Shown piece by piece: positions 54,257-63,896 of a stretch of DNA of 64,000 nt. The notes beneath the pieces are model-generated. The model was not told the DNA's origin and did no database searches. It saw only the letters and a program-made list of their open reading frames with translations. Where the stretch lies: contig NC_020813.1 of NCBI RefSeq assembly GCF_000348725.1, forward strand, positions 1,898,248 through 1,962,247, in the 5' to 3' direction. Both the position numbers and the translations under genes were made by a program. How positions within the stretch are numbered: the first letter of the stretch is position 1; each line of letters starts with the position of its first letter. The DNA comes from Pseudobdellovibrio exovorus JSS. Its GTDB lineage: Bacteria > Bdellovibrionota > Bdellovibrionia > Bdellovibrionales > Bdellovibrionaceae.

Positions 54257-56446
54257 CTAAACTCCCTCAACCGGCACAACCGGTATTTCAATATACATCT
54301 TCGTCCCTTTATTTTCATTCTCTAAAACTCGAATGACCCCACCATGGTCCTCTACGATACTTTTAACAATGGGAAGTCCTAAGCCGGTCCCCTTTTCTTT
54401 AGTCGAAAAGTAAGGCTCGAAAACTCGGGCTCTGTCCCGTGGCGCAATCCCCACACCATTATCTGCTATAGAAATCTTCAGAATCTGCTGAGCCCGATTA
54501 TATTCTGTTTTAATCCCAATCCAAGGTTGAGGTTCCCCTTGTACCGCCGCCACAGCATTATCAATTAAGTTCACAAAAACACGTTTCAGTTGGTCTGGAT
54601 CAAATTTAAACTCAGGAAGTGAGGCATCCAAATCTATTTCAAAGTTAACACTGGCATGAGCGTCCACATAAATCTGGGCTGACTTCTGTAACACACTATT
54701 CAACTGCCCTTGCATTGTTTTGATTTGAGGTAGACGCGCAAACTGACTGAACTCGTTCACTAAAATTCGCATATCATCCACCTGTGAAACGATCATACGA
54801 ATTGAATCCTGAAAGGCTGGATCTTGAATTTGGTGACCAAACTTTTTCGCCAATCGCTCTGCAGACAAGCGAATAGGTGTCAGTGGATTTTTAATTTCAT
54901 GGGCAATACGACGGGCGACCTCTGTCCATGCCGCGGCTCTTTGGGCATTCACTATTGGTGTCATATCATCAAATACCATAATGCGCCCGATTTCATGACC
55001 CTCTTCATTTTTTAAGATCGAGATGTGCACGAGTAGCGGAATCGCCTCGTCCCCCACAGTCATGCGGATTTCTTTTTGCAAAGACAGTAATGCATTTTCT
55101 TGCATTGAACGGATGATGCTAGAAAATAAGCGGTAATTTTCTTCGCTCAACAAAGTCTTCACATGTTTACCAACGCTGCTGGCTGAATCAATTTGCAATA
55201 GCTCTACGGCACGGCGATTCACTGTCGTCACATTACCCGTCATATCGACTGAGATCACTCCGGCGCTGACGTTTTTCAGAACAATCTCTACATAACGTGT
55301 GTACTGATTTAGGTTTCGAAGTGTCTGTTGCAGTTCTAATTCCGATGTCGAAAGATTACTGATCATTTGGTTAAAACTGCCAATCAAGCTATTGATTTCC
55401 TCACTGCCAGATTCGATCTCGAGCTGTGAGTAGTCTCCGGCGGCAACTCTTTTTGTAGCCCGACCTAATTGAACCAGAGGAATAGACAACTGGCGGGCGA
55501 GATAGAACCCAAACCAAACTGCGGCGAATAGAATGACCAGTGTCATCACAATCAACATAATAAAATAAATCGAACGCAGTGGATATTCCACAAGCGAGTT
55601 ATTATGAAACTCTTGGTAAGCTCCAACGATATCATCAAACCGAGAGCCTGGGGCTAAGTTCAAAAACTTAGTGACCACGACAACCCCATGCAGGCTGCCT
55701 TTTTCTACAGGCACCATGACACGCAGTAAATTGTAGTCTCCGAAAATTTGGATTGTGCTGGCCTCGTCGCGATTCGCGATTCCCTTTTCTAAGAATTCTA
55801 AATTCAGCGGTGGAATCAAATTCGAGTTCAATTCCGCGTCTTGTGAAATCAGGCGTGGGTCCACAATACCACTGTAGTACTCAATCGCATCTAACTTGTA
55901 CTGCTTGCGCAATTGATCTAACTGAAATTGACGAGGACGTCCGGCTGTTCGAACCAACTGCTCTGCTGAAAGACGCGAGTATTCATACCCACGCTTCTTC
56001 TCATTCATAATGAATGTATCGATAACTTCGGAAGCATTTCTTAGAACCGATAGCATTCTTTGCGAAAACCATTTTTCAAAACTACTATTTAGATAAAACA
56101 CCGAAATTGTGAAAACCATGAGTGTTGGGATCACAGAAAACGATACGAAAGATATCATGAGTTTGGACTTCAGACTCGATCCGAATATCTTCCCTCGTCG
56201 TTCGATAAAAACTTTAACTATGTTACGGAAGATCAAAAACAATAACAGAAGGACTAATATCAAATTGACGTTTACTAAACCAATAAAGAAGAGCACATAC
56301 GAAGAAGGTAGATTTTGTCCCGAGCGGAAGATATAGACTTCAATCCCAATCAATACAGCTAAAAGAATCGACAAGGAAAAAATCGACAGAATTTCCCGCT
56401 TACGCTTCTTCAGCTCGAGCTTTCTTTCTGTGTTGATATCCTTCAT
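54257..56446 (-). CDS. ntrY: NtrY-like membrane sensor histidine kinase
   Basis: This 729-residue kinase has four membrane segments (about 20-40, 50-75, 96-118, 293-316) with an extracytoplasmic sensor region in between (about 120-290), then HAMP (about 315-370), PAS (about 385-495), HisKA with phospho-His516 in ARRIAHEIKNPLTPIRLSAE (shortened), and HATPase with DNGVGIAP and GTGLGLPIVKSIVEDHGG. The layout is that of NtrY. Its partner is ntrX directly downstream with no gap. Confidence 0.95.
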   Translation of the reverse strand: MKDINTERKLELKKRKREILSIFSLSILLAVLIGIEVYIFRSGQNLPSSYVLFFIGLVNVNLILVLLLLFLIFRNIVKVFIERRGKIFGSSLKSKLMISFVSFSVIPTLMVFTISVFYLNSSFEKWFSQRMLSVLRNASEVIDTFIMNEKKRGYEYSRLSAEQLVRTAGRPRQFQLDQLRKQYKLDAIEYYSGIVDPRLISQDAELNSNLIPPLNLEFLEKGIANRDEASTIQIFGDYNLLRVMVPVEKGSLHGVVVVTKFLNLAPGSRFDDIVGAYQEFHNNSLVEYPLRSIYFIMLIVMTLVILFAAVWFGFYLARQLSIPLVQLGRATKRVAAGDYSQLEIESGSEEINSLIGSFNQMISNLSTSELELQQTLRNLNQYTRYVEIVLKNVSAGVISVDMTGNVTTVNRRAVELLQIDSASSVGKHVKTLLSEENYRLFSSIIRSMQENALLSLQKEIRMTVGDEAIPLLVHISILKNEEGHEIGRIMVFDDMTPIVNAQRAAAWTEVARRIAHEIKNPLTPIRLSAERLAKKFGHQIQDPAFQDSIRMIVSQVDDMRILVNEFSQFARLPQIKTMQGQLNSVLQKSAQIYVDAHASVNFEIDLDASLPEFKFDPDQLKRVFVNLIDNAVAAVQGEPQPWIGIKTEYNRAQQILKISIADNGVGIAPRDRARVFEPYFSTKEKGTGLGLPIVKSIVEDHGGVIRVLENENKGTKMYIEIPVVPVEGV

Positions 56447-60352: not shown

Positions 60353-60401
60353 GCGGTAGTTTCTCCTACAACTAAAGATGAGTTATGTGTATGATTTGTC
60401 A

Positions 60402-60656
60402 ATGCAATCTCGGGCAGAAAAAAGAACAAAAGCTTCAAAACGAATAGGTTCATCTATACGAAAAGATGCTATTCATCCAGCGGACTACAACCGCTACAAG
60501 CTTCCTTATGCCTGTGAGGACTGTTCGCATTTTAAGTCTGAAAATGAAAGTTGCACTCTGGGAATGCCCACTGAGCAACACCTTCGCAGAAATCAAAAAA
60601 GATCTTACGAACTCTCGGGAAAAGTCGCTCTTTGCCGTCTGCAAGAGATTGATTAA
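60402..60656 (+). CDS. small four-cysteine protein, possibly leaderless
   Basis: This 84-residue basic protein has Cys38 and Cys41 (CEDC), Cys51 (ESCTLGMP) and Cys78 (ALCRLQ), an arrangement that could bind zinc or an iron-sulfur cluster. I do not recognise it. No ribosome site precedes the ATG at 60402; a TATGAT hexamer at 60390-60395 ends 6 bases before it, suggesting a transcript starting at the ATG. An earlier in-frame ATG at 60378 is possible. It is divergent from clpB. Confidence 0.65.
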   Translation: MQSRAEKRTKASKRIGSSIRKDAIHPADYNRYKLPYACEDCSHFKSENESCTLGMPTEQHLRRNQKRSYELSGKVALCRLQEID

Positions 60657-60793: not shown

Positions 60794-60820
60794 TCAAGCT
60801 ATTCAAGGAAATCCCGAATA
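60794..60820 (+). promoter_or_regulatory. candidate sigma-28-like promoter of the flagellin gene
   Basis: TCAAGCTA and CCCGAATA are separated by 11 bases. Each matches the FliA consensus (TAAAGTTT-N11-GCCGATAA) at 5 of 8 positions. A 212-base leader would follow before fliC. The score is modest. The 383-base gap 60657-61039 otherwise holds a non-T-run hairpin (60700-60718), a leader stem (60913-60921/60932-60940) and the leader ORF. Confidence 0.4.
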
Positions 60821-60996
60821 GTCAGCATAAGAATAACTCGAGGCAGGAAGTCTCATGGGCCAAGGTGCCCAAACTCATTGAAAGGAGACCTCAAGGAAGA
60901 TTTTAAGGAAGATTAAAAATTATTACGGAAGAATTTTTAAGGTTTAAAAAAACAGGATCGGCTAGGATGCCGTGGATAACTCAAGGAGGATATGAA

Positions 60997-61017
60997 ATGA
61001 AACAATTAATTACATAA
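60997..61017 (+). CDS. 6-codon leader ORF upstream of flagellin
   Basis: ATG AAA CAA TTA ATT ACA TAA follows a near-perfect AAGGAGG (60983-60989) at 7 bases. The downstream fliC has only a weaker GGAG. The strong site could be a ribosome standby site or a leader peptide. Whether it is translated is not shown. Confidence 0.4.
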   Translation: MKQLIT

Positions 61018-61039
61018 TTTAATAAAATGGAGTTTTACA

Positions 61040-61870: not shown

Positions 61871-61905
61871 TAGCTAATAACAAGTCAAGATTCAGTTAAA
61901 GATAG

Positions 61906-61933
61906 GCCCCGAACTCAGTTCGGGGCTTTTTTT
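61906..61933 (+). terminator. terminator after fliC
   Basis: GCCCCGAA pairs with TTCGGGGC around CTCAG, followed by seven T's. Confidence 0.95.
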
Positions 61934-61990
61934 CGCATAATGCCAATAGAAATCGAACAAAACAGTCCTCATCTTTTTTGAAATTATCTG

Positions 61991-62018
61991 TAAAGTCTTG
62001 GACTAGACTTGCCGACAA
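61991..62018 (+). promoter_or_regulatory. sigma-28-like promoter before the H1-like gene
   Basis: TAAAGTCT and GCCGACAA match the FliA consensus TAAAGTTT and GCCGATAA at 7 of 8 positions each. The spacer is 12 rather than 11 bases. Transcription would start about 40 bases before the ATG at 62066. Confidence 0.55.
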
Positions 62019-62065
62019 TTTTAAAGCTCGCTACTCTGTTCAGGTTATCAACTAAAGAGGTAAAA

Positions 62066-62665
62066 ATGGCTAAAAAAAAGAAAGCTCCAGCAAAGAAAAA
62101 GACTGTTAAAAAACCAAAAGCCGCAGCTAAAAAAACTGCGAAAAAACCGGTAAAAAAGGCAGCTCCTAAAAAAGCCTCTAAACCGAAAAAGAAAACTGCT
62201 ACAAAAGCTAAAAAAGCTGCTCCCAAAAAAGCGGTTGCAAAGAAAATAGTAAAAAAAGCTACGAAAAAGCCGGTAAAAAAAGCCGCTCCGAAAAAGGCTG
62301 CTAAACCGAAAAAAGCTCCAGCAAAAGCTAAAAAAGTAAATCGCAAAGAAGCTGATGAAGTTAATACAGCAACAATGACTCAAACTTCTATGATTGAGGA
62401 CATTTCCTCTGAGTTTGATGACGAAGCAGAACTAGATACACTAGTCGATATCGAAAGTGAAGATGCCCTAGCCGACGCTGAGCCTCTTGATGAAGACGAT
62501 CTAGATGACGATGACGAAGACGACGATGAAGAAAAAGAAGCGGGCTTCGAAAGCCTAGAAGATGAAGACTCTTCTGACGATATGGAAGATGACATGGAAG
62601 ATGATATGTCGTTGACTCGTTCAGATGAAGAAGACGATGAAGATGATGACGAAGGTTACTTCTAA
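62066..62665 (+). CDS. histone-H1-like bipartite protein (basic repeat half, acidic tail)
   Basis: This is a 199-residue protein with no normal folded domain. Residues 1-94 are almost only Lys, Ala, Pro, Thr and Val, like H1-type or AlgP-type DNA-compacting tails. They contain a 17-residue unit repeated with one change (26-42 and 67-83). Residues about 108-199 are highly acidic (Asp/Glu runs, a few Ser and Met). The ATG at 62066 is chosen because AAAGAGG lies 5 bases upstream. It lies 195 bases after fliC and has a sigma-28-like promoter. Nucleoid compaction, with the acidic tail as a counter-charge or partner site, is a hypothesis. Confidence 0.85.
   Translation: MAKKKKAPAKKKTVKKPKAAAKKTAKKPVKKAAPKKASKPKKKTATKAKKAAPKKAVAKKIVKKATKKPVKKAAPKKAAKPKKAPAKAKKVNRKEADEVNTATMTQTSMIEDISSEFDDEAELDTLVDIESEDALADAEPLDEDDLDDDDEDDDEEKEAGFESLEDEDSSDDMEDDMEDDMSLTRSDEEDDEDDDEGYF
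62141..62191 (+). repeat. Lys-rich internal repeat, copy 1
   Basis: This encodes residues 26-42 of the H1-like protein (KKPVKKAAPKKASKPKK). Confidence 0.85.
62264..62314 (+). repeat. Lys-rich internal repeat, copy 2
   Basis: This encodes residues 67-83 (KKPVKKAAPKKAAKPKK), 41 residues after copy 1 with one substitution. Confidence 0.85.
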
Positions 62666-62696
62666 TTCAGAATTCTGTTTTTAGATAAAACAAAAT

Positions 62697-62725
62697 AAAA
62701 AAGGAGTCTTACGACTCCTTTTTTA
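62697..62725 (+). terminator. bidirectional terminator between H1-like gene and sigma-54 regulator
   Basis: AAAAAAGGAGTC pairs with GACTCCTTTTTT around TTAC. It is symmetrical with A and T flanks, so it can stop both converging genes. Confidence 0.92.
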
Positions 62726-62831
62726 TTTATTCTAAAATTTGCTACCTTGATCCGTCGACGTTTCCTTATTCAAAATAGCTTGTCCACCTTCCGTCAACGT
62801 GTCCTGATTGATGGTTTAAATCGAATATAAA

Positions 62832-63896
62832 TTAATCTTTCATCGGTTTTGAATGAACCGCGTATTTTTCAAACTCACCATACTCATGTAATTTGTTGTA
62901 CAACGTTTTAATCGTGATACCCAAACCTTGAGCTGCCTGTGTTTTATTTCCACCGTAATGAGCAAGAGCTTTTAGGATGTACTTTTTCTCTAAATCATAT
63001 AAAGGTACTGATGGATCAAATTCCATGCTGTCTTCCATAACCTCTGGATTGCGAATGCCTTCTGGCAAATCGTTCACCATAATCATGTGACCTTCAGAAA
63101 GAATCTGTAAACGCTCGCAAGCATTTTGTAATTCACGGATATTTCCTGGCCATTCATACTTCACCATGATTTTCATCGCTTCTTCATCGATGCTTTTGCC
63201 ACGATTCATAAATGAGTTACCAGAGCTTAAGAAGTAGTTCACTAATACTGGAATATCTTCTTTACGTCTTCTTAATGGTGGAGCGCTCACTACGATTGTA
63301 TTAATACGATAGAATAAGTCTTCACGGAAATTTCCACGCATCACTTCTTGATCTAACTCGCGGTTTGTTGCACAAACAAGGCGAATATCTACTTTGATTG
63401 GATCTTTACCACCAACACGATAGATCTCACCTTCTTGGATAAATCTTAAAAGCTTCGCTTGGATCGCTAATGGCAACTCTCCGATTTCATCTAAGAATAA
63501 AGTTCCGCCGTTAGCTGCTTCAGCTAAACCGATTTTTCTGTTGTATGCACCAGTGAAAGAACCTTTTTCGTGACCGAATAACTCAGACTCTAATAGTGTT
63601 TCTCTTAAAGCGCCGCAGTTGATCGCTACGAAAGGTTTGTTGCGGCGGTTAGATTTGTCGTGGATAGCGCGAGCGATTAACTCTTTACCCGTTCCAGACT
63701 CACCCATAACCAATACACTGGCTTGAGATGGAGCCACACGCTCGATCATTTTCATTAACTGCATCATCACATCGGACTTATAGATAATCTGTTTAGTTTC
63801 AGTAACTTTTTGTTGAGCCACCCAACTAGATTGTGTTTGAGACTGTAGAAGTGAACTTGGTAAGTGCGGTAGTGAAGTTGCGTTTGATTCTGACAT
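62832..63896 (-). CDS. sigma-54-dependent activator without N-terminal sensor domain
   Basis: This 354-residue enhancer-binding protein has intact ATPase motifs: GESGTGKE at 65-72, GSFTGA at 112-117 (sigma-54 contact), GGTLFLDEIGE at 130-140, and the arginine-finger region PLRRRKEDI. A C-terminal Fis helix-turn-helix (GGNKTQAAQGLGITIKTLYNKL) follows. Only about 35 residues precede the ATPase, so there is no receiver, GAF or PAS domain; control must come from abundance or a partner. AAGGTGG lies 5 bases before the ATG. It converges with the H1-like gene near fliC, which hints at a motility link (inference). Confidence 0.93.
   Translation of the reverse strand: MSESNATSLPHLPSSLLQSQTQSSWVAQQKVTETKQIIYKSDVMMQLMKMIERVAPSQASVLVMGESGTGKELIARAIHDKSNRRNKPFVAINCGALRETLLESELFGHEKGSFTGAYNRKIGLAEAANGGTLFLDEIGELPLAIQAKLLRFIQEGEIYRVGGKDPIKVDIRLVCATNRELDQEVMRGNFREDLFYRINTIVVSAPPLRRRKEDIPVLVNYFLSSGNSFMNRGKSIDEEAMKIMVKYEWPGNIRELQNACERLQILSEGHMIMVNDLPEGIRNPEVMEDSMEFDPSVPLYDLEKKYILKALAHYGGNKTQAAQGLGITIKTLYNKLHEYGEFEKYAVHSKPMKD

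Follow-up and report, generated by a model that had tools for sequence, protein, structure and literature searches.

The tail of eukaryotic histone H1 is a disordered, Lys-rich polycation, and prothymosin-alpha, a disordered polyanion, acts as its acidic chaperone. In Myxococcus CarD, neighboring acidic and basic disordered regions share the HMGA-like part of one protein, which also has an RNA-polymerase-binding domain and AT-hooks. Chlamydial HC1 and HC2 are small, Lys/Ala-rich, H1-like nucleoproteins, and HC2 (Pfam PF07382) has, to our knowledge, no acidic block. Long Lys/Ala/Pro-rich disordered tails of a DNA-binding type occur in AlgP and PhaF of Pseudomonas, and in vitro the AlgP tails bind DNA (PMC9239181). 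In Bdellovibrio, the attack-phase chromosome is extremely compacted, a state that is incompletely explained and for which a recent review expects further, unidentified proteins (PMC11318664); the histone-fold proteins HBb (Bd0055) and Bd3044 are candidate chromatin components (PMC10627809).

Here we describe a protein from the same lineage, encoded within a 64-kb window (the whole stretch of DNA that was analyzed) of the single-contig, 2,657,893-bp genome of Pseudobdellovibrio exovorus JSS (Table 1). With somewhat more conviction than doubt, we regard it as a disordered diblock polyampholyte, probably an H1-like nucleic-acid protein and most likely one of the nucleoid, expressed from a sigma70-type promoter of its own. 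Like AlgP, it possesses the Lys/Ala/Pro-rich disordered basic domain that marks H1-like proteins of that type; whereas the basic tail of AlgP is C-terminal and built of KPAA repeats behind an N-terminal helical domain, the basic block here begins at residue 1 with no helical domain ahead of it, lacks KPAA repeats and is followed by an equal acidic block. It shares its small size and Lys/Ala-rich character with HC1 and HC2, yet unlike HC2 it is acidic in its second half, and the PF07382 profile gave weak matches in 4 of 19 family members (best E 0.0095) and none to the window protein. In contrast to CarD, AT-hook motifs (RGRP or GRP) occur in 0 of 71 copies. Compared with the two separate proteins H1 and prothymosin-alpha, both charges reside in one polypeptide without a globular H1 domain, a likeness of working for which no homology is claimed.

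The protein is predicted to be intrinsically disordered, in contrast to the folded histone-fold dimers of HBb and Bd3044: AlphaFold2 returned a mean pLDDT of 54, a pTM of 0.15 and one short, weak helix, with no folded histone fold. The archaeal histone model PF00808, which may miss HBb, found no match in the genome. Searches of the window protein against Pfam and, at family cut-off, against curated H1-like families gave no match, a search for solved structures returned none, and an NCBIfam sigma-factor match was discarded as low-complexity noise (22.5 bits against a cut-off of 711). The protein represents a conserved family undescribed in domain libraries.

Table 1. Features of the flagellin-proximal locus, in window coordinates.
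Feature	Position	Strand	Basis
Conserved sigma28-like promoter of fliC, TCAAG-N15/16-CGA, in 12/12 orthologs	60794..60820	+	positive control
fliC (Flagellin_N + Flagellin_C), one of six Flagellin_N-type genes in the genome	61040..61870	+	Pfam
Strong intrinsic terminator 3' of fliC	61904..61928	+	sequence
Sigma28-like match TAAAGTCT-N12-GCCGACAA, 7/8 + 7/8, overlapping the conserved -35 box	61991..62018	+	sequence
Conserved sigma70-type promoter: TTGCCG (62009-62014), N17, TACTCT (62032-62037)	62009..62037	+	ortholog comparison
Candidate gene: 199 aa, basic N-terminal and acidic C-terminal blocks, ending ...DDDEGYF	62066..62665	+	ORF, orthologs, dN/dS
Basic block: residues 1-94, net +45, nearly all Lys, KKAAPKK-type repeats, predicted disordered	62066..62347	+	
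Acidic block: residues 95-199, net -53, short conserved motifs EFDDE.ELD, FE.LED and C-terminal DDEGYF	62348..62662	+	
Residues 107-126 (TSMIEDISSEFDDEAELD region): sole predicted helical stretch, low confidence	62384..62443	+	AlphaFold2
Inverted repeat with A/T tails between convergent genes, likely terminator 3' of the candidate gene	62693..62728		
Convergent sigma54-dependent activator: AAA+ and Fis-type HTH	62832..63896	-	Pfam

A preliminary description had drawn attention to the ORF, its spacing from fliC, its Lys/Ala/Pro- and Asp/Glu-rich halves and a promoter-like site matching both FliA half-sites at seven of eight positions, all of which are present; the spacing is exactly 195 nt (61871-62065). 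Because a terminator follows fliC and an inverted repeat follows the candidate gene, the latter forms its own transcription unit. The sigma54-dependent activator gene downstream is a conserved neighbor at many orthologous loci, and Pfam detected no receiver domain in its product. Rfam gave no match above gathering scores between window positions 56000 and 64000. Farther upstream, a 92-aa ORF with several Cys (60378-60656) sits between clpB and fliC; it had no match in a Pfam search, and a similar C-terminus is found at another locus (L028).

Nearly all Bdellovibrionaceae carry an ortholog, as do other families of the same order; to that extent the earlier description of a basic/acidic protein with an H1-like tail in a predator lineage is supported, and the protein is conserved. 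Among the 53 family genomes with a completeness of 90% or more, 50 have a homolog, and a profile built from 19 orthologs matched 112 of 141 genomes of the order, many of the weaker matches being Lys-rich fragments. With dN/dS mostly 0.1-0.2 (whole-protein range 0.01-0.22 in eight pairs), and with a basic block free of amino-acid change at a pS of 0.14 between the HD100-like genome and a relative (G018), the protein is real and under purifying selection. It is not universally required, since the ortholog in one complete genome contains one in-frame TAA (G062:C1:842257-842760) and a few relatives lack the gene. Lys-rich proteins at L026 and L029 proved to be other proteins and that at L030 part of another, SWIB-like one; none is an ortholog. 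The window's genome encodes a second Lys-rich protein (G000:C1:1632949-1633128, minus strand), whose L030 copy runs into a putative SWIB-type domain. Elsewhere in the phylum, outside this order, the profile also matched basic/acidic diblocks that lack the GYF tip and for which no flagellin neighbor was detected; these are either homologous to the family or convergent with it.

Related genomes also confirmed the conserved linkage to fliC for which the preliminary description had proposed a search. Of the 54 family genomes examined, about 42 have a flagellin gene upstream of the candidate gene, within ~1.3 kb and in the same orientation; one genome from each of two further families shows this arrangement too. 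The HD100-like genome (G060, which we take to be B. bacteriovorus HD100) carries its ortholog at 2962576-2963172 (L099), likewise downstream of a flagellin gene. Judged by position, that flagellin is probably fliC5 (bd3052, PMC2791853), and a literature search found no papers naming bd3051-bd3056. Most linked loci have a lipoprotein gene between flagellin and candidate gene; it is absent from the window's genome and three others (G000, G008, G012 and G005, two of the four being incomplete assemblies), and the same query recovered it in the positive controls G003, G002, G010 and G060. By this comparison, the window's subclade has lost the lipoprotein gene. The adjacency seen in the window is therefore old synteny, closed up by the loss of one intervening gene, and constitutes no proof of co-regulation.

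Averaged over 71 copies, the basic block carries +42 and the acidic block -41, leaving a mean net charge of +1.4, and in the basic block Lys far exceeds Arg, of which there is almost none. With a mean net charge close to zero, the intact protein may be a poor DNA binder. Across species, the charges of the two blocks are not tightly correlated (Pearson 0.05, Spearman 0.30), which gave no support to charge co-evolution as evidence of self-neutralization and indicates that exact self-neutralization is not under visible selection. Both ends are conserved: the N-terminus reads MAK in 67 of 71 copies, and the C-terminus ends in GYF in 60 and in F in 67, against 0.004 GY[FI] ends expected from composition. 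This conserved tip suggests a partner.

Alignment of ortholog upstream regions revealed a shared element, TTGCC(N)-N17-TA(C/G)(T/G)CT. A first and stricter test (TTG-N20-TANNNT) detected it in 20 of 26 orthologs versus 1.07 expected; an extended pattern (TTGCC-N17-TA..CT), loosened after inspection of the first set, was present in 49 of 70 versus 4.6 expected, the HD100-like genome included, and in 15 of 33 genera, almost all within the family. On this comparative evidence, the gene seems to be transcribed from its own housekeeping-type promoter rather than through a FliA switch, and a promoter of this kind would be compatible with expression during the growth phase or with constitutive expression.

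The preliminary description had instead placed the gene under FliA. The strongest rival to our reading is a protein that compacts the nucleoid in the motile phase under FliA control, at any rate in this species and the relatives nearest to it, where promoters for FliA and sigma70 possibly overlap. The spacer of 12 between the half-sites was correctly measured, but it is no departure from the norm, because the B. bacteriovorus attack-phase consensus (TTAAG-N16-CCGATA; PMC3627812) and 7 of the 11 TTAAG..CCGATA sites in the window's genome share the N16 spacing. The match thus combines 14 of 16 positions with the lineage's own spacing. Matches of at least 14/16 with a spacer of 11 or 12 are expected 0.2 times per shuffled 64-kb window, and one was seen; a looser pattern (TAAAG...GCCGANAA) occurs six times in the whole genome versus four for the reversed control, making the sigma28 match weak evidence by itself.

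Comparison across orthologs does not support FliA control. Sigma28-like matches at p≤0.05 were found in 10 of 70 orthologs: six belong to the window's genus, where L001-L004, L007 and L008 score 12 to 14 of 16, and the four scattered nominal matches outside it are at about chance level. Even among these congeners, the TAAAG box degenerates (to TTAAC or TAAAT) whereas TTGCCGAC and TACTCT are kept, and the apparent '-10' half is accounted for by the conserved sigma70-type -35 box that it overlaps. Since the sigma28-like site of fliC itself, ~220-280 nt upstream of that gene, is retained in all 12 orthologs compared, a genuine site at the candidate gene would be expected to show; no conserved TAAAG/TTAAG-N15/16-CCGAT element was found upstream across the 70 orthologs. 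The site is therefore probably not a conserved FliA promoter, and motile-phase timing loses its support, the conserved upstream element being of sigma70 rather than sigma28 type. We consider FliA control unlikely, despite the old linkage to fliC and the finding that FliA drives most mapped HD100 attack-phase promoters (PMC3627812); the window's subclade may possibly have gained an overlapping FliA promoter recently. More generally, the case illustrates how a conserved sigma70-type -35 box can give rise to a sigma28 match that looks convincing.

Inverted repeats of at least 6 surround the -10 box in 24 of 49 orthologs versus 10.7 expected, and a perfect 9-12 bp repeat (for example GCCCCCTTA..TAAGGGGGC) brackets it at loci of other genera such as L099, L015 and L098. 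We rejected an operator at this position: the repeat resembles a terminator, its place suits the upstream lipoprotein gene, and in genomes that no longer have that gene it is weak or missing; it is probably the lipoprotein gene's terminator overlapping the candidate promoter.

The fliC leader has features of its own. It is long (~220 nt, 60794-61039) and contains GGA-rich elements conserved in most of 12 orthologs, including GAGGCAGGAAGTCTC (60840-60854), whose AGGA loop resembles CsrA sites. Directly before the fliC start region lies a tiny ORF, ATGAAACAATTAATTACATAA (MKQLIT*, 60997-61017); an ORF of 5-7 codons is readable before fliC in ~11 of 12 orthologs and perhaps encodes a leader peptide.

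How might an H1-like diblock protein, our preferred reading, operate? A single-gene transcript would start from TTGCCG-N17-TACTCT, downstream of the fliC terminator and outside the FliA regulon. By analogy with the systems above, DNA or another polyanion is probably bound through the basic block, whose Lys-only charge (about +30 to +45) would neutralize and bridge DNA without sequence specificity. The acidic block, at about -35 to -55, would vie with DNA for the basic one, either in cis or in trans, and/or dock a partner protein through its short conserved hydrophobic motifs and GYF tip; such competition or docking would preserve solubility and leave binding reversible. From these properties we infer that the protein binds DNA, that its acidic block masks this binding and that it takes part in nucleoid remodeling; a nucleoid role is plausible.

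The same basic block would be equally suited to polyphosphate, and AlgP, the best-studied bacterial protein with an H1-like tail, localizes to polyphosphate granules and spaces them (PMC9239181). A protein that organizes such granules, its basic block binding polyphosphate or tethering granules to DNA and its acidic block solubilizing it, is in our view slightly less probable even than FliA control: the protein has neither KPAA repeats nor, at its N-terminus, the helical domain of AlgP, no granule genes were noticed near the gene, and a literature search gave no link between this family and polyphosphate. Least probable is a disordered protein associated with RNA, ribosomes or RNA polymerase that does little direct DNA compaction, its acidic motifs and GYF tip serving as docking peptides: the conserved EFDDE.ELD, FE.LED and DEGYF motifs do exceed mere charge, and a terminal aromatic residue after acidic ones recalls the layout of an SSB tail, but the genome's own SSB ends in EDIPF and, as a terminal sequence, DEGYF occurs just once among all frames of the genome, so that SSB-tail mimicry was rejected and a shared docking pocket is not indicated.

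Returning to a nucleoid protein, the family is not among the proteins named in the portion of the HD100 nucleoid proteomics study considered here (PMC10627809). Two tryptic peptides of 7-35 residues derive from the window protein and one from the HD100-like ortholog, and with so few usable peptides the protein is easily missed in tryptic proteomics, which may be what its absence from that part of the study reflects. A bolder extension, which we advance tentatively and rate well below the basic reading, is a lineage-wide, self-chaperoned linker histone: a single disordered polypeptide in which an H1-like DNA-condensing block is joined to an acidic block akin to prothymosin and to a GYF tip for docking, and which, beside histone-fold proteins, would compact the Bdellovibrio chromosome and loosen it again over the course of predation. 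The family offers a conserved candidate component for how the Bdellovibrio chromosome may be packed in attack cells and reopened in prey.
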